The position numbers were made by a program, and so were the translations under genes. A stretch of DNA of 64,000 nt. Source: Sipunculus nudus (Eukaryota > Annelida > Sipuncula > Golfingiida > Sipunculidae). The notes beneath the pieces are model-generated. The model was not told the origin of the DNA. It did no database searches and saw only the letters and a program-made list of their open reading frames with translations. Every line of letters begins with the position of its first letter. Within the stretch, counting starts at the first letter, position 1. The stretch spans positions 79,034,124 through 79,098,123 of the forward strand of contig CM049308.1 of assembly GCA_026874595.1 (NCBI GenBank), read 5' to 3'. Below, piece after piece: positions 5,291 through 36,700 of the stretch.

Positions 5291-7247
5291 TTATTTTGAT
5301 GGTGGATCCTGCCATTGTACGACAACCACACCGTCGGCGCCGTTTCCATCGTAACCGCGTCCCCAGGTATACCCATGGCCTCCTTTACCCACAGTGACAG
5401 TGATGGCCTGTTCAGGTACGACCTTAAGGTTCTTCCTGCAGAAGCCGCCGCCCCCTCCGGCCCGTCCGCCCGCCCGGCTTCCCCCGCCCCCGCCGTACTT
5501 GCCTCCATTTCGTCCTTGCGGTTTGGATCCCCCAGGACCGGAAGTTCCAAGTGGCATACCTTCAAAGATTGACGCACACGAGGTGGCAGCACTGGAGCCT
5601 CCTGCGCCACAGAACGGGAATGTAGACGATCCGGGATGGAGATCTGATGGTTTTGAAGTCTGTCCAGCTGCCCCTCCTCCAGCTGAACAGACTCCTCCTG
5701 ATCCCCCGTTCCCACCTTTTCTCGTACATCCACGACCGCCTGCTCCTCCTAGTTTTAATAATAAATATGATAAAACAGATCATTCGCGAAGAAAAATCGC
5801 ATGGGGAATAAGATTGGCCCAGAGAATATGCTGGGATAAATTATTCATTATCTATACAACTGAAAGGGAAAAGGGGAATATAGACGATTAATTATCTGAA
5901 TAGCAGAGAAAAGAACTAGTAACTCATGGTTTATGATGCTCAATTAAAGTTAGCGCATTTCAAACCTATAAGTTCATGCAGGATTCGTGGGTTTCCTATG
6001 ACATTTTACCGGAATCTGTCTTCGTGCAAAGCATCAACTTCCTAGAAATAATCTGTGTTATGCTGATAGCTGTGCATGGTCTGTCATTCTCAAAATTAAA
6101 AGTAAAAAAAAGTATGTGTAAACATATACCGACTGTAGCTGGCGCTACCAGCTCTATATAACGATTGTAATGTTTCAAGACCAGTTAATGAAAGAATAAT
6201 CATAACAATTCAATCACCCACTCCCGAAAAGTTCAGCCCTTAATTTAATTATCTGTACCAAACTTAATATGAGGCAAAATTGCCTAATTTATGATTTCTA
6301 AAAGTAGATACATGGAAAGCGAATTCAAGCCAAGAGCTCTCTAGGTCTAGCGGAAATGGAAATTTTCCATTTAAATTTCATCCGAACTCTGACTGCATTT
6401 AAAGTCAATACTTTTACGGTCAGGCTCTCGCGGTTACTATTTGTGTTCGCATCACACTGAAATTATTACAAAAGGGCAAGTAAATTCCCCTACCATTTAG
6501 AGTTTGTAGGTGTCATTTTGTATGTTTCTCAAGCAAGATCTTTTACAGAAGTAATAAGGACACTTAGGTTGATGCAACCTTTTTTTAGGTTGACAAAGCG
6601 GACCTATCAGCAAGTCAAGCACTGGTACTGTCGTAAGCACTATAGTCGAACAGTTTCAGTGTCACCGCAGGAAAATAGCAGATGTTCCGTTAAATGGTCG
6701 ATTTTGCAATAAGCACCGAGGGAATAGTAACATATTCGGATAACTAATCAAATTGAATAAACTCGAGATAAACTTCAAAACAACGGTTTTAAAGAAAATT
6801 CATCTTTACCCCTTTTTACAGTAAGGGCCAAGAAAACAGACCAACTAGCATTGAAACGGAAGGACAGAAGTAGTTGGAGAATAGGAAAACTTACCCTTTT
6901 TATTTCCATACCCTGCCTGCCCACCGCGTGCAGTCATGTATTTTCCGAATTTGGAAAATCCCCCGTTGGCCCCTCTAGACGTGGAGTTTGACCCGTCCTT
7001 GCCACCGCCTCCGCCACCGATAACGATGACGTTCAGACTTCTGACGCCAGGGGGCACGATGAAGACACCGTCGCTTTCATAAAACTTCTTACGAAATGTG
7101 GGCTTTCCAGTAGTGTTAAATCGGTTTGGTGGTGATGTATACGCAAAGGCTACAAACAGGATACACTTATCTTTATTTTGTTTTACTTAAAATCCCGCAT
7201 ATTTCGAATTAAAACCTTTACCTGCGATTCTTACTTATATCAATAAC

Positions 7248-7301
<54 letters not shown>

Positions 7302-7777
7302 AGAAGCTAATATATAACATGCCTAATGAATATGAGAAGATTTTGTAAATTAATTAGTACTAAACTGGTGTTGAGGAAATATCACAGCACTGTCACAGTG
7401 TACAAGCAATCTTTATCCACCCGAATTTTGTACATGAAGCATTCCCTACTCCATTGATTTTCCTTAAAAATTGTTGTCTTTTAGAATAGAGATAAGAGAA
7501 AACACACCAGAAAATAACTGTAAAACCCTTAAACCATGAGATAACCACACTGTGCGTGGATATAAAATGTCTTACTTGTAGTAGTCTCGGGATATTTGGG
7601 TGATGGCGTGTTCCTCCCAAAGTTATAAAAGACAAATGCGATTTTTTGTAGCAAAGCTTCCGTCAACTGCTGTCGTTGCCTTAACTCGTCCAGCTGAGTC
7701 TGAACCCGGGGATCCACGGGGAGTTGACCCAGTGTCAGTCCCACTGCTGCCACCAAGACCAACAAACGCAACATCAT
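5291..7777 (-). CDS. Secreted glycine-rich protein, paralog B (3 coding exons, ~304 aa)
   Basis: Coding exons are 7777-7576, 7149-6895 and 5748-5291. They join to 915 nt in frame, ending in TAA, with both introns in phase 1 exactly as in gene A. The signal peptide core is LLVLVAAVGLTLG, starting at the first of two ATGs. A Gln/Leu-rich amphipathic helix follows (about residues 22-53), then a Thr/Pro hinge. Exon 2 has FIVPPGVRSLNVIVIGG, a six-Gly run and KDG. Exon 3 repeats the A pattern: five Cys, PSDLHPGSST, MPLGTSGPGG, the YGGGGGSRAGGRAGGGGG block and GADGVVVVQW. Exon 3 is much more alike between A and B than exon 1. It lies about 6.5 kb downstream of A on the same strand and is almost certainly a tandem duplicate. 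Its function is unknown; an extracellular structural or adhesive role is inferred from the signal peptide and composition. Confidence 0.88.
7251..7299. repeat. (TA)n microsatellite in intron 1 of gene B
   Basis: An uninterrupted TA tract of 49 bases between coding exons 1 and 2 of the glycine-rich gene B. Confidence 0.95.
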
Positions 7778-7885
7778 TACTCACTCCGCTTAGAGGAAAC
7801 CTAAAATAATTAAATTTTATCTACATTTGGACATGTATCAGAATAAAAGTCGGTTCGTCAATGTTTTCAGTTAGTACGGTGGCTG

Positions 7886-7893
7886 ATTTATAC
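7886..7893 (-). promoter_or_regulatory. TATA-like box of glycine-rich gene B
   Basis: GTATAAAT on the minus strand about 110 bases upstream of the ATG, giving a 5' UTR of roughly 80 bases. An acceptor-like TTATTTTAG lies 29 bases before the ATG, so a 5' UTR intron like that of gene A is also possible. Confidence 0.45.
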
Positions 7894-8039
7894 CATGGCT
7901 GATTTAGGACACAGAAAAAAAAATTTAGGAAGCAAAAAAAATATATATATATCTCGAAAAACATGACATGCTTTTACAAGGGACATGTAATGCTCGGAGT
8001 AAAATAACTGATATGTTGAAGTTTTATGTTAAACTTTGC

Positions 8040-8260
8040 ATTTTACCGGGCCCGTGGTCTCGACGGTACACAAGACTCCTAAGAGCACAGATCGCGAGTT
8101 CGAGAACCGGTATCACCAGAGGAACCGTGAGATTGTGAGTCGACCAAAACCAGGCCGCCCTGAAGCTCTGCAGTTGTTCTGCAGCTGTTCATACATCTCC
8201 TCATCCTCAACTATTGAATTTTGAAGAAATAAACTACAGATAAAATCTAATTGCGTATAA
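8040..8260 (+). mobile_element. Possible tRNA-derived SINE (second type)
   Basis: GTGGTCTCGACGG followed about 40 bases later by GCGAGTTCGAGAACCG has the spacing of pol III A and B boxes. A Pro/Ser-free unique body and an A-rich end with AATAAA follow. I see no second copy in the window. Confidence 0.4.
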
Positions 8261-9419
8261 AAAAATTTAAAGAGTTTAATTTATTCTTTTATGGCATAGT
8301 ATTGAGTATATAGTTCGATTTCAACACCGTTTTCTTACATACATTATCTGAAAGTACGCCACGATAAGGGGAAATAAAACTGACGTATGTTTGCCTATTT
8401 TAAAGCTAGATCCTATTCTGATATATTTTTCAAGAATGGTTGAAAGGTATATCAGGCAATTTGACACACCCAGTAGGAATCCTACACCTTTACAAACACG
8501 CGCACACGCGCACTGTTATGATATTTATTTCTTCTCAATAATTATGTACGAGGGAAATTACTTGTACTTTGAGATAACTAACCAACTATATATAAATATT
8601 GTAACCTGTCACAATAGAAAATCATCACTTACCTTACTTATACTTAGGTTTAAACAAAAACTGTTGTGGGATGATGCTAACCGCTGGGCCGGAGTAAATG
8701 TACAAAATGTTAAGAGTGCTGAATAACACATTTACATGAGAAGAAAGATTCGTGGCAGTAAGCTGATGAATAAAGATGAGAGTTGCATTTCAGGCACTCA
8801 GATGATACGGACCATATAATCAACAACGCGTTATATGGAGTAGATTACAAAGAACTGAGCACAAAGAGCAAGAATTAACGACCACATTAACTTATGTGGA
8901 TGTAAAAAGGGATAAAGGGATATCCACAACAGGATATGGTGAACCGGTACATTAGATATGGCAAAGACATCTATAAATCTATTTGAAATACTTTTAATTA
9001 AGACATACGGTCATAAATGAAGGTATTATCAATGGTATTACTGCTACATATTTGTGCTGATTTTACATGTTCGGAAGTGCAGTCGCATAATGACACAAGC
9101 ACATTAAAGTCGGCAAAATAGTTTGCCAGACTTCTTAAGCTGCCAGGTTTAATTCTTATTTAAGGTTCAACAGATATTTTTATCGATAATTTTAGTGCGG
9201 AATGTCTTGGTCCCTCTGTTCATACTAAGAGACCTGTCTTATTTTCATGGGGCTGTCATTACGTTAAAATCGGTATGTATTTTTTTTCTTTGCGTTGCCA
9301 GATTCTTTTTTAGGCGAGCCAGACATGTCTGTGGACGACCATTGAATGACAATGATTGTTAAAAAGTTAAAGTTGAAGGTTTTAAGTCCCCTTCCCAATA
9401 ACAGGATCGGAAGACACCA

Positions 9420-9590
9420 TATTTTAGGTCGCTGGGGCCCGCCTTACGCAGATGGCACTTAATCCGGTACCCATTTTAATGTCGGGTGGACATAAGCACA
9501 TTTGTGGCTGAGACCTTGCCTTAGGGTCTTGGCAAAGAAGTGAGAAGCTACGGGATACGAACCCATGACCCCATGGGCATAGGGGTGGGG
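9420..9590 (-). mobile_element. Possible tRNA-derived SINE fragment
   Basis: On the minus strand the B-box-like GGGTTCGTATCCC lies near 9555-9567, followed by a body ending near 9420. It directly abuts a G run and the GATC-centred palindrome at 9627-9678. Confidence 0.4.
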
Positions 9591-9626
9591 GGAGGGGGCC
9601 GGAGGGGGGGGGGGGGCTCTTTTCAT

Positions 9627-9678
9627 GCTCTCTCTCTCTCTCTCTCTCTCGATCGAGAGAGAGAGAGAGAGAGAGAGC
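9627..9678. repeat. Perfect 52-bp palindrome of (CT)n-CGATCG-(AG)n
   Basis: Every base from 9627 to 9678 pairs with its mirror position around the centre between 9652 and 9653, with no spacer. A 13-base G run (9604-9616) lies just upstream. Confidence 0.9.
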
Positions 9679-9719
9679 GAACGAGTAGCGGTCTATATGC
9701 GAGTAGGGAGTTATGCGCT

Positions 9720-11488
9720 CTTTTGTTCTTTTTTGTTTATTTTCCAAATCCAAAGTTCACGTAGAGCCAGATAAGGAAAGGGGGTATACAATGAAATAAT
9801 AAAATAAAAACAATTAAGTGTACAACGGAACACTATTGCTCTATTCCGTGAAGATATGGTTCACATTTCATCAACTTCATGGTTCGATCACAAGTAAGTT
9901 CTTGAGCAAAGGCGGCCCCTAGTACCAGGCTCTCGTGATAAGATAAAGAAAGGACGTCCCAGGACGGTATATAATCCTTTAAATTCAAATATATTATAAA
10001 GATCCAGCTGTTATCTCCGAAATGTAATTAATCGTTTCTTTGGTGTAACCCTTACCTCCAGCCCCACCCTCCCACACATAATTTCATCAAAATCAGTTCA
10101 TAACACCCGCTGAATAAAGTTGCTAACAACCAAACCAAATAGCCGATGAATATTGATTTATGCAAATCTCTGCACATTTGGTTATCATATCATTTCACAC
10201 ACCAGGCTTTTTCACTTTTCTTTTCCTAATTAAATACACAAAGAATTGTAACATATTGTCAAGAGGTTACATTAGGAATTATGTTATTATTGCATATTAC
10301 TGTATTGTATCACATCTTTTGTATTTTTGTACAGTATTCAATTACGTCTTTTCATGGATGTAACAGGACAGGAATTTATAAAGGGCTATGCCATGTTTTC
10401 CAATCCTAATGGATAAATATTCAATAAAATACTGTTTATACCAAACCAAATAACCAACCAAACGCGATGAAAAGATTATACCACGCCACCTGGCCAAGGA
10501 ATATTAATTAAATTGGTAAAAAGAGTCATTAAGAGAGTCACTTACCTTAAGATTTATATACATACGGAGGTTCAGCCTGATACGCGCCGCAATTTGGCGT
10601 GAGATCTTCCTTGGGTAACTGATCAAGAACTTTAGGTCTCTGGGCCAACACCCATAGCTGTGGTTCCACATGAATGCACATCAGATTTGCTATGTCTTAA
10701 AGCACGCCATACATCTATTACTGATGGTATAACAGATAATCTTCCCAAGACAATGAAGAAATCCAGTTCATATAAAATAGCGTTTTATGACATACATTCA
10801 AAAGGTCTTTGAAAAGGACTGCCAGCAGACGAAAATTATTTACCTGATATGATGTTTTTTTTCCCTGTAGGAACCTTAACAATAACACGTATATTAATAT
10901 TACAGAAAGCCTTGTACCTGTATATTCAGGTAGAAGTGAAGGAGTGCGTGTGAAATGGCGAGTTCAAGTAGCACTAAGTACACCAGTATACCAGATGTAA
11001 CGATTTTTTTAGACCCTTCACAGTTTTCAGTCTCTCCCATTTAGGGAAGTGATACACTGCCTTATTCAGATACATGATGCATTTTTGTAATTTCTAGAAG
11101 GAGCAGCAAAATTAAGTGCGACTGTATTTTAGTCATGGTATATTAGATCAGACCGAGGGACTCCTTTTAGTAGAAGTCACGCCTAGTTTGTCGTATATGC
11201 AAGGAACTAGTCACAGCAGATTCTATTACATAAGCATATTAGTAACTGATAAGACAGCAAAAAACTAAAGTAATATTTGGGAACTTCTCATATGTACTTA
11301 TATATTCATTGTACCAAGTTACCTGATTTTATATATATATATAAAGTATTGTTTTCAGAGTCGATGATGACTCTCTTGGTTAAATATTTCTTCTCAGGTG
11401 TCCAAAAAAAGTTGTTAAACGGAAAACAACAATTTGCCTTTGCAAGGAAATGACAGAAGCTGAAAGTTACGGAAGGTACCATTACCAC
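9720..11488. other. No gene recognised
   Basis: AT-rich sequence with no repeat family, convincing frame or splice-linked exon that I can see. The stretches 7900-8040, 8260-9420 and 11744-12235 are likewise featureless. Confidence 0.55.
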
Positions 11489-11743
11489 GGGGCCAGGATG
11501 GCTGAGTGGTAAAACGCTCGGTCCTCTCCTCTGGTAATCCGGGTTCGATTCCCGGCGTGGCTATGAGAGTGGTTTGTAGTGGTCCATCCAAGGTCAGTGC
11601 ATGATTTTCTCCGGGTCCTCCTGTTTCCTTTCACCCTTACCAACGACTACCGAGCGCCAACAACCGAGCCACAGAGAGTGTCTCGTATTAGTTATTTTAA
11701 CAAGTTGTACAATCCATGTCAAATAAATAAAGTTGATAAAAAA
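11489..11743 (+). mobile_element. tRNA-derived SINE, complete-looking copy
   Basis: The head has a pol III A box (TGGCTGAGTGG) and a B box (GGGTTCGATTCCC) with tRNA spacing. The lower acceptor stem does not pair fully, so this is not a functional tRNA. A central segment, TTTCTCCGGGTCCTCCTG, resembles conserved SINE core domains; it recalls the MetaSINE core, from memory. The tail carries AATAAATAAA followed by a short A run. Confidence 0.7.
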
Positions 11744-12235
11744 CAGAGGGTGAAAGATGTGTGGTACTATTTACCTGGCGACAAAGAGGGGCACATCATG
11801 AAATGAAAACACTAAGAATATTCGGCAAAACGACCATATATGGAAGGTTATTGTTCTGGGGGTTTTAATTCTAAGCTTCTTGCTGTAAACAATACTTTTA
11901 TTGCAAACATGCAATGAGGATAAGAAAACAGGGTAAAACCCTAAATGAATTCTTCACCTCAAATTAAATGTACAAAACTTTATACAATATACCACCAAGT
12001 TGTACATATAAAGAAAAAGTGAAAATAAAAATTAAGATGAAGACAACTGTTTCAATACAAGCACGAACAAGTCAGATCTGAAATGTGACTTGTATAACTT
12101 TTACAGTTACAGTAATATGGTCATTAGAGTGTGTTATTTATATAATGATGTTCACTTTGCACAATATGTGACAGAGATACAAACTATTTGACAGAGATAT
12201 TCAATTGTATCTGACCAGAAACAAAATATAATTAT

Positions 12236-13850
12236 TATCCCCTCGTAAACCGTCCTGACTTATCAATGAATTCTTGAACAATTAAAAAAAATTACAGTTT
12301 TCTGCATAAGACAAGTTCACATTACTGTTTTACATAGTATTTACATTTCCATTTTCAATCGGTATCTTTGTCAAGATGTCATCCCTCCAATTAGAATAGA
12401 GTGGACATCTAATTAGAAAATGGTTTTGCGTTTCTTCAACACGGCCACATGAACAATAAGGATTACTTTCACAGTGGTTAATGAACAAATGATATTTCAA
12501 ACAGCTACAATCGAGCCGCATGCGTGTATGGAAGATTTGTGCTGCTCGACTCCCACTGCACTGGCTTAAATATAAGGGTGGCTTTGGTAAATTTCCTTCT
12601 AATTTTCTCCGAAAACTAGCGATTGACGGACATCCTCTCGTGGATTGATATATGTGTTCCGTAAACCGATAGAAGATATTAAAAATGGATTCTTTCTCAA
12701 AGAAGTACGAAATACAGGCGGAAGCAAGTCGTTTTTGTTTCTGTTTATCTGTTTTATTCTGTCGTATCTGTTTTAATATCCCACTTCTTCAGGAATTAAC
12801 TGACTCAGGTAAGATTGAACCAAGCCATTGATCATCTTATACAGTAAAATTATTTTCACAAGCATATTCAAGTACAGGCCGTATGAAAGATTTATACAAG
12901 GTTTCCAATACAGTTCTGTTTAGTTTATACATCAATGATCTTAATACATTTATTCTCGTTCCTGCTTTATCACATATATTGGAGATATGGTCTTTAAAGT
13001 TTCTCTGTTCACTTAATATTAAACCCAAATGATTATGCCCCGATACATAATTTACCGATTGACCATACATGCATAATGAACTATTTGTATTTTTCTTTGT
13101 GCTGAAAGTAATAGCCTCTGTTTTGTTTGAGTTACATTTAACAAACCATTGCTCAGCCCATTTTCCTAAACAAAAGAAAACAGAATTAACATTAATTGCC
13201 ATATCCTCTGGATTGTTTCCTACAATGAATAATGAAGCATCGTCAGCAAACAGCCAGATATTGGTTTGAACACAATCTGCAATATCGTTAACATAAACTA
13301 AAAAAAAGTGAAGGCCCAAAAATGGAGCCCTGCTGTACTCCTGCTGGTATACATGCAAATATGATGAAGAGTTTCCAATAATAACCACCATTTGCTTTCT
13401 TTGTGACAAGTAATCAGATAACCAACGGAGTAAGGAACCTTGAATGCCCATAATATATAATTTATGTAGCAGGCCATCATGCCAGACTCTGTCAAAAGCA
13501 TTTGAGGTATCTAGGGAAACAAATATAGTGTCCTTTTTCCAGGTCCATAGCTCGAGAGATCTTATTATATATTTCACATAATTGATTAGTACATGAATCA
13601 TGTGGCATTTACCCCGAGTGTACATTAGTAAATTTATTAGATTTGCATAAAAAATTAAAGATATACTTAAATACACACCATTCAAATATTTTCCTTGAAG
13701 AATTATGTTGTGGGACAGGCCTGTAATTGCACATATCCTGATTATCTTTTTTACAACATTCGCCTGCTTCCATATACAAGGAAATGTTTCGCACGTAAGT
13801 GACCAATTAAAAATGAACGTTAAATATTTAGTGATCGAATTCTTCACTTA
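12236..13850 (-). mobile_element. Decayed non-LTR retrotransposon (LINE), 3' part of ORF2
   Basis: Reading along the minus strand, conserved reverse-transcriptase blocks appear in order: NYRPV in one frame near 13720, then LDTSNAFDRVWHDGLL, FLVYVNDI, the catalytic FADDASLF and YLGL-like HLGLIL in another. A Cys/His segment resembling the end of LINE ORF2 follows (CSCGRVEETQNHFLIRCPLY at about 12440-12380). The C-terminal FIDKSGRF comes just before a stop near 12236. Blocks fall in different frames, so several frameshifts have occurred. The order resembles jockey- or CR1-like elements. No 5' part (endonuclease, ORF1) is recognisable, which suggests 5' truncation. Confidence 0.85.
12837..13847 (-). 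pseudogene. Reverse transcriptase pseudogene within the LINE
   Basis: This is an open frame of 336 codons with the LDTSNAFD and FADD motifs. The usual GVPQGS box is scrambled in this frame and the N-terminal NYRP block lies in another, so it cannot be functional as it stands. It most likely broke through small indels after insertion. Confidence 0.75.
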
Positions 13851-14278
13851 AGCAATCCACTGGGAATAGCACACATGTAATATAGGTCGATAGGAGGTAT
13901 TCTGACGACTCGGTATGGGCTCTCCTTGAGGTTAAACTGCCCCTAATAGTAGTAATACTAGATTTTTTTAGGTTTTTCTAAACCATGGAATAATCTATAT
14001 TCGATTTTTTTTTTCATATTCCACGTATTACAAGTCGGAAGTATTGAAATACCCCCCCCCCAAGCCTTTGTATTCTTTAGGCTACCCAGAGACGCTGATT
14101 TTCCTGGATATACAGACGAGATGAAACGTGTGCTCACGATAAAGTTACTTTATTTTATTTTCTATTACAAGTAATTCTTTACCCGGTTTTCTTGCTGCTT
14201 TCATTTATGCTTGCTATTTAAAAACTTATAGTGTATCGATTTAAATATTACTGTCACGATACGATAAAATCTTTCATG

Positions 14279-14284
14279 TTTATT
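14279..14284 (-). terminator. Poly(A) signal of glycine-rich gene A
   Basis: AATAAA on the minus strand about 35 bases beyond the TGA stop, giving a very short 3' UTR. Gene B also has its AATAAA close to the stop. Confidence 0.6.
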
Positions 14285-14319
14285 TTTTTAAAATATTTAA
14301 AAAATATCAGAATATTACG

Positions 14320-15879
14320 TCACTCAAAAGGTCCCTCCGGGTTGATCTTGCCTCCCCACGCCACCACAACTACACCGTCGCCGCCATTACCAAGATGGCC
14401 ATTTCCCCACGTGAGACCGTGACCTCCTTTACCCACCACGACAGGGATAGTCTCTCCTGGTGTTACTTTGACAGTTTTCCTGCAGTAGCCGCCGCCCCCT
14501 CCGGCCCGCCCGCCCGCCCGGCTTCCCCCACCTCCGCCGTACTTGGCTCCATTCCGTCCGTCGGCCGCCATCCCTCCGGGGCCGGATGTTCCCAGAGGCA
14601 TTGATTTAAATTCTTCCCCACACAAGGTGGCAGCACTGGAGCCCCCTGTACCACAGAACGGGAGTGTGGATGATCCGGGGTGGAGATCTGACGGTTTTGA
14701 CGTCTGTCCTGCTGCTCCGCCGCCGGCAGAACATCCGCTGCCTTTTCCACCATAACCGCCAGCTTTGGTGCATCCCCAGCCACCTTTACCTCCTGAAAAC
14801 AGACACAAGAATATTTATGCAGATGTAAATATAATTTATAATCATTTGTGCACGTTCCTTTAAGTAACTAGATTGTGAATTTATCACATAAGATTTCTCA
14901 CACATCCCTAAGTGTTTCTAGTGCCTTCCATATTATATTTTACTGACAGAAACTTTGATTTGATACAACTTATGTCCACATAGTCTAAATCAAAAACACG
15001 AGGCTATATATAGGAAGTGGGATATATATAAACGTGGACACGACGATATTTAACACCCTTCCTCTGCAATGTCTTAATAGACGTTCAGGTCTTGTTTATA
15101 TCTTTTTCAAGAGACAACTTGAAACTGTGTTTACACACGTATATTCTGAATGTTACCCAATTTTAACGTATGACCACAATTATGTTCAAAACGCCGCAAG
15201 AGCACAAGAAATAACGTTTCGCTCACCGTAGTTATTACCGTAGGCGCCTTTACCGCCGGCTGACCACACCGTTTTTCCAAAGGAGGAAGCCCCGCCATTA
15301 ACACCAGCGGATGAGGGGCTGTTATCTTTGCCGCCGCCACCCCCTCCAATAGCGATCACGTCAACCTCCGTAACTCCAGCCGGTACGGTAAAGGTCCCGC
15401 TTTTCTCAAACTTCCTCTGACCAAACGCTGGAGTGGGGATTGTCGGGGGTGCTTCTGTTGAGACTGTAACAAGTCAAACTTGTAATAATATTGTATATAT
15501 TTTTTTAAATGATGATCGAATACCGGCTACCACAATACTGCATGTACGAAAATTGAGTGACCACGAATGATTAAAGAAAGAAGCGCAACAGTGCACCTTT
15601 CAAATTGTATGTAGTTTATTTTGTTATATACATTTAAAGGAGTATATAGGGTATCTTTTTTATATTTTCCATTAAAATATATGAGGATATATTAAAATCA
15701 CAAATGTTGCTCTCACCTAGTCCAAATGAAGAAAACAGAGCACTGATTCTGCTGATGAGAAGCTCCACTTTGTCTTGTCTCTCCTTGACCATGACCAGCT
15801 GGGCTTTAACTTCTGGGTCAATGGCTGCCTGGGCCAGTCCCAGCACCGCTAAGAACAGCACGGCCTTCATACTTCGCAT
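14320..15879 (-). CDS. Secreted glycine-rich protein, paralog A (3 coding exons, ~290 aa)
   Basis: Coding exons are 15879-15717, 15463-15227 and 14792-14320. The joined length is 873 nt, in frame to a TGA, and both introns are phase 1. Residues 1-18 form a signal peptide (core AVLFLAVLGLAQA). Residues about 20-51 form an amphipathic helix rich in Lys/Glu/Leu, possibly a coiled coil. A short Pro/Thr stretch follows. Exon 2 holds a strand-like motif, FTVPAGVTEVDVIAIGG, running into a Gly run and GGKD. Exon 3 is glycine-rich with five Cys, the motifs PSDLHPGSST and MPLGTSGPGG, a YGGGGGSRAGGRAGGGGG block and the ending GDGVVVVAW. The FTVPAGV...VVVVxW frame is like the glycine-rich domain of phage and bacterial surface proteins (I recall Pfam Gly_rich_2), where glycine strands can form polyglycine-II bundles. 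The receptor kinase ALK also has a glycine-rich domain of that type. A structural or adhesive extracellular role is inference. An ATG three codons downstream is an alternative start. Confidence 0.88.
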
Positions 15880-28587: not shown

Positions 28588-31500
28588 TCAGATCAGACCT
28601 GCAAATATGAAAAAGCAATTTTAGAATTAATCATAAAAGTCCTATGACTTATTTTTAAGTTTATTTAATATAACAACATACGCGGAGCAACCGCATATGT
28701 AAAGCATAAGCTTCAATTAAAGGATCACATAACTCATTATGCAATTTACCAGTATAATTATATCATACAAGATTAAAGTATAGTATAGTATAGTATAGTA
28801 TAGTATAGTTTAGTACAGTACATTACAGTACAGTACAGTCTAGTATAGTATAGTATAATATAGTATAGAATAGTATAGAATAGTATAGTATATTAAGAAA
28901 AAGAAAAATGTGTAATAGTGAAAAGGTAAAAATAAACATGCATACTAAAGTGTTATATTTTTTACTTTTCAGGAGAAAAGGATAAAGACTGTGTTGTTTT
29001 GGGTCTGGCGTTTATTATAAAACCTATATTTAGGACAGGATTTAATAAAGTTGACTACTCACCTAAGCAGGAATAGTTGACCTTGACAGCGAGATCTCTG
29101 ACGAGACCTTGGAGTTCGGCGTATGATCGGATGTTCATCACGTGTTCGTCTGTGCGGGGACTAGCGATCGCTTCAACCTCCTTCTCAGACACCCGGTCTC
29201 CAACAGAAACCACAAAAAGTTCAATGTTTTTGTCCAGTTTAGCTTTTCTTGCCTCCATTAAAGTTTCTTTCAAGTTTTCGGAGTCGTCGTCGACGATGAC
29301 GACGCCAATTCTCTTGGCTTCCGGTCGGGACCCGTGGCATGGCTTGAAGCTCATGGTGCGCATGTAGTGTAACGTCATCGCGATGTTTGGACGTCGATAT
29401 TCCAAAGCGGACAATCTTTTGTCGATGTCTGAAGGGTCATCGAAATCGTCCAATCTGAATCCTGGAAGCTCATGACAGTCTTTTGGGACCATGCCGACCC
29501 TCACGCGGTCGCTGGCTATGTCCAGGTTTTTGGTAAGTGAGCGGATAAACCTCAGTGCCATGTTTGTGTTGTCGGGACTTGCTGAGCCGGGCATTGCGAA
29601 TACAACGTCTGCTGGTCTACGTAAACCGCACCCTGTGAAATAACGATACTATGATTAGACTGAGTACACATCGGCACAGCACGAAGTAGAATAGGAAGAA
29701 TAACAAGAAGAAATAAATCTATATTATCTTTATCACAGCTTCTTTATCAAGATGTTTTCGGGTTATCTGTTTGAACTATCATTCTCTATACACATGTCTG
29801 AATGCAGCCAAAGGATATGGTTCATTTATTCGTATCATGTCTATACAAGCTAAAACATGGTGCCATTAGTGGCCTCTAAGGGTAAGTTCTTAGCGCTCAG
29901 ACCCCATAACTTTCAATTAAGCTATTCTAAAACTGAAAAAAAACTCTTTATTTGTTCTAAGTATTGAAAGCACCTAAATGTTCTCTAACAGATCCAAAAT
30001 TTTGTCTAAATGTAATTCAATGCCCTAATCCACATGTACAGGATGCAACCACGTGTCCCGACTTTCTGCCAAATACCTTCCTACCATGAGACGGGATGGT
30101 AAGGAAAGTGTAAGCAAACCTTCCTGACACAATGTTACGTACACCTAATATTGTGTAATATAAAACGACTCTTCAGTTCTAGTTTACCTTGATCGCCGGG
30201 CATGATGTGCCCTCTCTCCTTAATCTCGTACAGGGGCTTGTTGAGCTGGGCTCCCGCCATTTCATTGCTTTCGTGGATGAAAGGACGACGCTTGATGTTT
30301 CGGACGCTCTGTCGTGGCGTAGTGGTGGGAACTGTTGTTGGTGTTGTTGGTGTGGTCTGAGTTGTTGGTGTGGTCTTGACTGTTGTTGGCACAAAAGTTG
30401 GTGTGGTTGTGACAGTTGTTGGCAATGTCGTCGTAATTAGATCTGTGGCAACAAGAGAATTTTTGTAAAACAGACCTCCTTTAAGCAGTATAATTAAATA
30501 TATATCCTCAGAACTGGTGATATTTGACCAAATAAAGTCAAGCATACAAAAAAAAGAGTCGCGGGAGACTACAACTTGACAATTTATTAGTTCGCGTGTA
30601 GACGTGGTAACTGAATGACTGTATGTTTCCATAAGTTGGCTTCAAACCTACTTCATATGCCTTTCACTATAAAGTAACAAAGCATTCCTTTTACAATATC
30701 AGAAAATAAGCTTTTCTTAAGTGAAACAGTATTGGCTATATATATCTTGTGCATACCGTGGTTGGTTTAAGTTTTACAAACTAAAGCCACATTATGCTAA
30801 ACATATGTTCCGTGTTATCGAGCAGACGACAGCTATGAAATAATAGACGACACGAGCAGATGACAAATGACAACCATAACCATCAGACGAATGAAGCTTA
30901 CTTTCGCAGGCCTTAACGGCTAGTATAGTCCGGAGGGTCTTCAGTGCCGAGAAGTCATTTACTGTAAACATGTACCGGTCGTCTGGGTCCGACGCAATCT
31001 GACGAAGTTCTCTTTCGATCACCCTTTTGCCGACGCCAATTGCAAACATGTGGATGCCGGCCTGGTGCGCTTTGCTGGCCTCACGAGAGGTCGCCACTGG
31101 GTCATCGCTGGCGCCATCCGTGATCACAATACCTAAAATCACATGGTCTTTAAAGTAAGAAAACATTTTTAGACCTGTCCAGTAAATTCCTATATAAAAC
31201 ACTATTGTTTCAAATATATATTCGTTGTAATGTTTCTTGCATGGCAGACCTTTTCGCGCCTATAAGCTATGCCATTTCGTACGTATATTAACCAAGAGGA
31301 TGGAGTTACAGAACAAAAGCTATGTGTAAGATGTGTAGCTTTGCCATGGACCACATATCTTTAATTTTAAATTAATTTTATTATTTTTTTACATAAACGT
31401 TTGTCAAAACAACGGATTAGTGGGAAACAGCTACGAGTAATTCCATGGTTATTCAGAAGATAACGAGGTTTGCTGGCCTGATTAATGTATTGGCTGTAAT

Positions 31501-33740: not shown

Positions 33741-36700
33741 GAATGAAAATTAATTCATACAGAAAACTATAATTCTGTACGTGTATGTCAAGTATATCAA
33801 CGTCAAGGAAAGTGTGTCAAGAAAATCGTGACATCACCAGTTATACGTACCAAGCACTGGTTTTGGTTTGAATGCCTCAGGAGATACCGATGGTACATCA
33901 TTAGACAGTGATGGAGTAGTCGTAATCGTGTCTGCAATAAAATATGAAAATAGAAGATTGATCGCTTGTATGTCATGTCTTATGTATAGGGTATAATCCT
34001 TGTTCTACTGCTTTAAAAGTATAAACTTATGCATAATTAACTTACCGAGATGGTTCGTATATGTACCCTCTTTTTCATCGACAAACAAACCTTCTGTTAG
34101 TATATCATCAGAGAGTATCTGAGATAACGATCTATATAATTACTAATTACTAATATATGTCACTCGCCACGGCTGAATGAGGCTCGTGTGCGTCACAGTA
34201 TTTCTTTAACCTTCTCCGTCTCCGCCCAGAACGTGACAGTACTATTCATGTGACACACTCTTAATTGTTCAATTGATGATATTATATGTTCAGCATATAC
34301 ACCACAACTAGTTTAAATGGAAAGCAACTCCTAAACCCGAGACCAATGATAATAAGCAGGCATAGAATTTACGTATTGTCCTGCATCGTGCCAATATTAA
34401 AAATTATAGATTTTTTTAAATACTGGAATTCAGATTTAAGTACACATTTTTTTATTAATTTTTCACAATGCTAATACCTGCATATGCAAGCATAATGAAT
34501 TTTCATTATTTTTATTACAGATATGAATATTTCATTAGTGTTGAGTGTAATTGAATAAACTTACCAGGGCATAGAGCCTTTATCAAAATTTCATGTATTG
34601 TGTGAAGTTTTTCGAAGTTATCGACGTTGAACAAACGTTCGCCGACAGAAGCAATGGCCTTCAGTTCGTGCTGGTCTACGTCATCTCCCACGCCGATGAC
34701 GTAGATAGGAATGTTATCCGCGTGAATGTCACGTGCCACCTGGAGTGTGAAATAATTCTCGCTAGAGGCGCCATCTGTGATCAGAATCACCATTTTCCGG
34801 CTATGTGGTCTAGGGGACAAATCCAGCATCCTTTTGCACTTGTCCAAAGCCAGGTCTGTCCGCGTGCTGCCGTGCGACTGCTCAATTTTATTGATGGCGT
34901 GAGTGACTCCAGACTGGTGCCGATGATCGTTCAAGCCGATCACGGTTTGAGCGTCGTCTCCGAACGTGACCACGCCCACTTGAGCGGTCGCTATACTGAC
35001 ATCCATCTCCTTGACAATCCGCCGCACGAATTTGAGCATTCTTTTAAAATCGGGACCCCATATGCTTGTTGAAGAATCCAGGGCAAATACCACATCGGTT
35101 GGAGTTTTGAAGCAATCTTGCTCTGCGGGAGAAATAGAAAGAATCAGCATTGCCATTTGTTCAATTATAAGGGGTGATATATTTGACATAACAGTCTTGA
35201 TAATTATATTTGTTAATATTTTACCGGGTGGGATGGAATGCATGTATAACAGCCAATGCTTTAGGAAGCTAATATGGTATATAGATTTCGATATGATGAA
35301 GACCGTGTATATGATGGAAATTTTGAATGCACCTCAGGGACTTAACCCATTACCAAAAAACTAATATGACTTTTTGGATCATGATATGCCTCTATAAAAC
35401 TTGGATACACAAAGCTGCACATATATAACGCCTCTTTCTCATATAAGGTTATCTTTACTCTCATTTAATTCAGAGAAAACTGTGCAATACACCACGGATT
35501 GTGCTAAATTTCTTTTTACAGGTTAATAATATATTACTTGCAAAGCATGTATAATCGTCGGGTCGAACAGCAGCGGTCTTCTAACGCAATCTGGTGAAAT
35601 AACGATGGGACCTCAGAGGTTCGCTCCATTATCCTAACAACAGGCTATAAATGGGGCATTGTATTTTATTTCTTCATACACACAAACCAGCGTAATTTTA
35701 CACGCTGTTTATAGACTTTATTTCTCATTGGATACTTTATGGCTGCTATAATGTATGTTTTACTACGGTAGGATAAAGCCATTCAGAGTTCAGAATTTAG
35801 TACCGTGACGGATAATAAATAACTGTAACCGATTCGCTAAATTGGATAAACAAGTGTCGACAGGCTCAGTTACCGGCAGAGAATAAATGCATTAAACAGA
35901 CGACAATTGAACAGATTGGCAGTGAATAAGAGCCATTTTATGCTTAGCAATTTTCTGTGTACATGTGACATAGCATAATCATTAAACTTGTTAAGATAAC
36001 AAACATTCGTTCTCGTTTCACATATGAACAGACATTCATTCCACTTACTAAATATATTTAATCCTCTCTGGGTGGACAGATGTCTGTTGTACAATGTTTG
36101 TACATTTCCACTGACACCTATTTTTTTCCAAAGGATATGTTTAAGCAGAAATCGCCTGGGAAATACATCATGCGTAAGGTATAGGAATTTTGCGTATTGC
36201 GCTTGTCGGACCAAGCACCGCTGTACACCCTACGTAGCCCAATACCCAAAAACCCCAAATGAGGGAGACAGGGGGCAGCGAATCACATTCATCAAAACTC
36301 AAAATCCCTACCCACGCAGATGTGAGAAGGAGAAGGTTGCTGAACTCATTCATCAATAGAACAGCTAGGATACGCCTTAGGTGACCCCTTTCTGTATACT
36401 CAGCGAACTATTCCTCCAGTACAGAACATCAGGCTGGCAATATTGGCATACTTCGGTATACATGGGGTCTGGGTCCGTGCGTTTCTTTATGTCGTATGTC
36501 ATGCGTCATTTACGCTGAATCGTCAGCACTGTCAACATGTTCGTTTTGTACTTTCGTTTTTCATGTCGTTCTGCGCTTAACAATAGCCCGTGAAATAACC
36601 CAAGCTGGCCCCTAAATCAGACACTTTTCTACCATCCGGTGTCAATTGCAGCATTTGAAGTATGCAGCAATGCGTGTAAGACTGTGAAAAGGTTTGCATG

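Follow-up and report, generated by a model that had tools for sequence, protein, structure and literature searches.

A cluster of spliced Sipunculus nudus genes predicted to encode secreted proteins with a domain related to phage fibre tips

Introduction

How an animal gene could come to carry a domain resembling the tip of a phage tail fibre, and what its product might do, is the question raised by two genes, A and B, in a 64,000-nucleotide stretch of the Sipunculus nudus genome (GCA_026874595.1, contig CM049308.1, positions 79,034,124 to 79,098,123; hereafter the window). The original prediction described them as a tandem pair of spliced genes for secreted proteins, each with a signal peptide, an amphipathic helix, an opening F-(T/I)VPxGV...VIxIGGGGGG, glycine runs, a closing GxDGVVVVxW and five conserved Cys residues, and linked them to glycine-rich domains of phage adhesins. 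The comparisons reported here give good support to a relationship of this domain with phage fibre tips, and the most likely overall function, judging from the sequences, is that of a secreted trimer which binds or adheres with fixed specificity. A literature search of titles and abstracts, without subscription papers, revealed no description of a Gly_rich_2-type domain in such animal proteins; automatic annotation may already have labelled the domain in animal orthologues.

Gene structure

Genes A and B were predicted, without transcripts, to have three exons each on the minus strand and to encode proteins of 304 and 290 amino acids, respectively. All four introns have GT-AG borders and lie in phase 1, in agreement with the splicing proposed originally. 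In gene A, exon 1 (7576–7777) encodes the signal peptide and an amphipathic heptad helix, exon 2 (6895–7149) a linker, the opening strands FIVPPGV..LNVIVI and the first glycine run, and exon 3 (5291–5748) glycine-rich loops, a Cys-containing loop (hereafter the Cys loop), the closing strands GADGVVVVQW and the stop codon. Gene B is arranged likewise, with the signal peptide and helix in exon 1 (15717–15879), a linker, the opening strands FTVPAGVTEVDVIAI, GGGGGG and an SSFG block in exon 2 (15227–15463), and glycine-rich loops, the Cys loop, a TPG strand pair, the closing GGDGVVVVAW and the stop codon in exon 3 (14320–14792). Every part of the predicted architecture is present in both proteins, the signal peptides being assigned by eye. 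The two domains are 68% identical, and the five Cys residues stand at aligned positions (A: 160, 173, 199, 210 and 256; B: 141, 154, 180, 191 and 237) and are kept in all four copies of the gene with an intact exon 3, namely A, B and two further copies, C and E. The helices of these four copies share one common a/d register (V/I-L-V/L-Q-V/T-I/L-I-F/L-F/Y), with a heptad contrast reached by 85, 57, 40 and 15 of 5000 shuffles for A, B, C and E, respectively. Judged from this heptad pattern alone, the helix probably trimerises.

Relationship with phage and bacterial domains

Against the Pfam family Gly_rich_2 (PF21722; curated cut-off 24.3 bits), which the original prediction had named for checking, protein B scored 26.2 bits and so passed, whereas A reached only 20.2 bits; when exons of B were scanned singly, exon 2 gave 25.1 bits and exon 3 gave 21.6 bits. 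No other Pfam family, C1q included, matched A or B at E ≤ 1. Both proteins matched PHROG 863 (tail fiber assembly; B: 3e-8, A: 9.1e-8). The best stretch in A comprised residues 86–122, encoded by exon 2, and in B the profile matched exons 2 and 3 in order (profile positions 400–435, then 426–489), exon 3 at 4.2e-5. Exon 2 of B matched 12 PHROG families at E ≤ 1 (best 2e-8). None of the five control sequences scanned (two reversed and three shuffled, from eight made) matched Pfam or PHROGs. Other searches added little: NCBIfam returned no family for A or B, a genome-wide six-frame search with PF21722 gave nothing at E ≤ 0.001 and missed B itself, tblastn of the B domain against 50,697 phage records gave nothing useful, and none of the 32 stretches from a pattern search of viral contigs with this domain was confirmed.

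The opening motif, written as a DNA pattern, occurred in at least 120 viral stretches and in 77 from prokaryote genomes of many phyla, and layouts were compared among these 197 fetched stretches, whose layout frequencies are not estimates for nature. In most classifiable domains (the usual layout), a TPG strand pair follows soon after the opening and an SSFG block comes later; in a minority layout, which A and B have, SSFG comes first and the strand pair stands just before the closing strand. A strict regular expression for block order assigned seven stretches to the layout of A/B and 42 to the other, with 148 lacking one block. A looser rule selected 22 rows, and ten of them, including the near-identical L065 and L069, were kept for a profile (A1). 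The rows dropped were two duplicates of L025 (L046 and L053) and ten others after reading. These ten included L008, which the strict expression had selected but in which the first SSFG is a chance string ahead of the usual layout. One further stretch (L031) has the minority layout though the looser rule missed it.

Alignment of A/B with A1 by hhalign gave 99.6% and a score of 146 over columns 2–211, and the exon 3 part alone gave 97.8% and a score of 77.6. All 17 controls scored ≤ 21.6 (reversed, 13.9; eight column shuffles, ≤ 17.8; eight shuffles keeping the shared glycines, ≤ 21.6), and six random sets of ten domains of the other layout scored 65–89 with 30 to 110 columns aligned. In these alignments, the opening strands, glycine-rich part and closing strands of A/B are collinear with the phage and bacterial domains from end to end. 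Single comparisons against all 197 stretches placed the 12 rows marked as minority layout at ranks 1–3, 5–11, 20 and 68. After removal of the opening, 97 of the 197 still beat the best reversed control, and only three of the best 12 were marked rows; exon 3 alone therefore shows no layout preference. By sequence, A/B as a whole fit best a minority layout in which the glycine bundle lies between strands 2 and 3. Searches of the PDB by sequence yielded no match with B, A1 or L007 and one poor match (E 0.49) with A2.

Chance or composition as the source of the domain match was ruled out by the reversed, shuffled and glycine-kept controls, and the originally proposed link to phage-adhesin domains was borne out beyond composition by PHROG 863, Gly_rich_2 (for B), hhalign and the controls. 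Prophage or bacterial contamination was likewise rejected, because the genes have introns and are clustered on a contig of 98 Mb.

Predicted fold and the position of ALK

The predicted model of a bacterial relative (L185) had its best solved matches in the cyanophage Pam3 fibre and the Bxb1 tail tip, with a weaker likeness to TNF/C1q jelly rolls; exon 3 of B modelled alone gave no confident fold. By the L185 model, the domain of A/B probably consists of a TNF-like sandwich into which a glycine-rich segment is inserted. The glycine-rich domain of the original prediction would thus stand, in this modified form and not as a bare polyglycine bundle. In BFVD, the same model had a fold match to Satyrvirus A0A3G5AF42 (E 9.4e-6). 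Satyrvirus is a giant virus, and such viruses may have been a way for domains of this kind to reach eukaryotes.

ALK, which has its own Pfam model (PF12810), was absent among 50 VIA rows of fold matches for the L185 model, a result that does not exclude ALK kinship. Alignment of A/B with one human ALK sequence by hhalign gave 19% probability and a score of 28.9 over one 23-column stretch (reversed controls, 22.0 and 23.8). Derivation of A/B from ALK thus has no clear sequence support in this weak test, in which the profile A1 likewise misses ALK (0.8%); A/B and ALK may still share a deep kinship.

Copy number and cluster organisation

The copy search covered the 1.43-Gb genome in 153 contigs, and its counts are lower bounds. 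A genome of this size, like the introns, agrees with an animal source. Exon 3 of B matched at least six places, two of which are pieces of one copy (D), and exon 2 at least five, all in a single cluster on the contig of the window (C3). Instead of the tandem pair first described, the cluster has no fewer than five members, which face in both directions, C(−), D(+), E(+), A(−) and B(−); their exon 3 matches extend over about 52 kb. Copy E stops about 30 bases short of the window start, and exon 1 of copy C lies about 10 kb from its exon 2. Copy D probably represents either a pseudogene or an error of assembly, because its exon 3 is in two overlapping frames (L205, 3778–4156) and no exon 1 was found in the nearby stretches read.

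Selection and the proposed function

The ratio of nonsynonymous to synonymous change (dN/dS) in exon 3 was 0.12–0.33 in all six pairs among A, B, C and E, and the cluster is thus under purifying constraint. In every pair, exon 3 showed less synonymous change than exon 2 (e.g., B–E, 0.22 vs. 1.7), and the exon 2 values were ≥ 1.5 or past the range of the correction throughout. The likeliest reading of these values is that the genes are old duplicates with exon 3 homogenised by gene conversion.

Among four regions of exon 3, the Cys loop had the lowest nonsynonymous change per site (pN) in five of the six pairs; the exception was B–E, in which the second glycine region had zero pN. Compared with the strand part, the pN of the loop was 0.01 vs. 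0.18 in B–C, 0.01 vs. 0.17 in C–E, 0.11–0.12 vs. 0.19–0.22 in pairs with A and 0.02 vs. 0.03 in B–E. In five of the six pairs, the loop likewise showed less synonymous change (pS) than the strand part, so conversion would account for part of the loop conservation. The ratio pN/pS was nonetheless lower in the loop in five pairs and about equal in A–C. Taken together, the substitution pattern leans towards one fixed target or a packing role for the Cys loop over a diversifying role.

With modest confidence, we favour the reading that A and B are secreted proteins built like a short phage tail fibre, trimeric and binding a fixed ligand with avidity. The exon 1 helix would form a stalk that probably joins three chains. 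A TNF-like beta-sandwich on this stalk, with opening strands from exon 2 and closing strands from exon 3, would carry a glycine-rich bundle presenting the Cys loop towards the tip. Acting together, the three tips of a trimer would give high avidity for a single invariable ligand, for example a glycan, a mucin, the matrix or the surface of a microbe. Because the number of conserved Cys residues is odd, an inter-chain disulfide would also be possible. The analysis itself yields the gene models, the shared heptad register, the kinship of the domain with phage fibre tips, the signs of purifying selection and the conservation of the Cys loop; from these we infer secretion (with the signal peptide assigned by eye), the trimer, the geometry of sandwich and bundle, binding and the place of action.

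One alternative is a structural protein of matrix or mucus, in which the glycine bundle provides stiffness and packing (as in shell, byssus or mucus) without a specific ligand. In its favour, the Cys loop is conserved and not diversified, and coding stretches for VWA domains, which often occur in matrix proteins, lie about 13 kb away. Nevertheless, we regard this alternative as somewhat improbable, given that the Gly content of A/B is about 23–24% with no simple repeat and that their strands are collinear with those of phage and bacterial relatives. Moreover, the two Cepaea shell proteins described in PMC7894901 have > 50% Gly and high Tyr and are glycine-rich proteins of another kind.

A second alternative is an immune lectin like the bivalve C1q-domain type II proteins, in which a coiled-coil stalk carries a microbe-recognising jelly-roll head. 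The order of signal peptide, coiled coil and C-terminal jelly roll predicted for A/B is that of those proteins; in the eastern oyster, type II accounts for 262 genes, or 55% of all C1q genes, and the family expanded through tandem duplication (PMC6835236). C1q and TNF heads are also among the fold matches of the L185 model. However, Pfam gives no C1q match for A/B, and five copies, a lower bound, were found here. In addition, PMC6835236 places the six largest oyster C1q clusters under positive selection, whereas the Cys loop is what changes least in the A/B family. An immune lectin of this type is therefore, in our view, unlikely.

As to origin, we put forward tentatively that a complete fibre tip of phage type and minority layout may have passed into an animal lineage, perhaps through bacteria or a giant virus, and there became a secreted trimeric lectin or adhesive, with gene conversion keeping the tips of the copies alike. 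The findings connect animal proteins with a receptor-binding module of viruses at the level of sequence, beyond fold alone. If the trimer and binding are real, animals would have in common with phages a stiff glycine-rich tip presenting a binding loop, with potential uses in adhesion, mucus, immunity and as a protein scaffold. Since the A/B layout differs from that of ALK (by eye), without a clear sequence link between them, more than one entry of the TNF-like glycine-rich domain into animals becomes a testable question.

Other features in the window

VWA domains were found in three minus-strand coding stretches (29055–29648, 30792–31259 and 34515–35333; Pfam 76.3, 51.8 and 129.4 bits, respectively), which are probably exons of secreted VWA genes. 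A Thr/Pro-rich stretch on the same strand (30135–30641) gave a New_glue match below threshold (18.5 bits vs. a cut-off of 31). Between A and B, a minus-strand reverse transcriptase stretch (12837–13847; RVT_1, 45.4 bits) is perhaps a decayed long interspersed nuclear element; the frame beside it (12330–12788) had no Pfam match. A plus-strand tRNA-like stretch at about 11490–11566, with A-box and B-box-like words recognised by eye and no call by ARAGORN, is perhaps a tRNA-derived short interspersed nuclear element.

Comparison with known systems

Bivalve C1q type II proteins are secreted, have a coiled coil followed by a jelly-roll head and occur as tandem duplicates, a combination that A/B probably share; A/B differ by the lack of a C1q profile match and by their glycine-rich insertion. 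The receptor architecture of ALK/LTK is not found in A and B, which have no kinase or membrane part and whose frames end just past the closing strand, and in human ALK the strand pair appears by eye to follow soon after the opening, unlike in A/B. Domains of the Gly_rich_2/PHROG 863 type share with A/B the opening strands, the glycine runs and a later part matched in order; unlike these, A/B are spliced, and A falls below the Pfam cut-off. The Cys loop has no evident counterpart in the eight phage and bacterial rows of an alignment with A/B (A3).

A solved counterpart of the predicted architecture is Pam3 gp24 (PDB 7YFW and 7YPX). According to PMC9608196, this protein is a trimer in which the helical stalk gives most of the trimer contact, followed by a TNF-like domain and a glycine-rich domain whose loops are proposed to recognise the host, and the fibre needs a chaperone for good folding. 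The same source reports a structural resemblance of gp24 to C. elegans ALK (2.6 Å over 125 atoms), and the TNF-like and glycine-rich fold would, by this analogy, have an animal precedent in ALK. A/B differ from gp24 in their signal peptide, introns, five Cys residues and conserved Cys loop, and are predicted to follow the same plan, with the helical stalk first, then the TNF-like sandwich and the glycine-rich tip.
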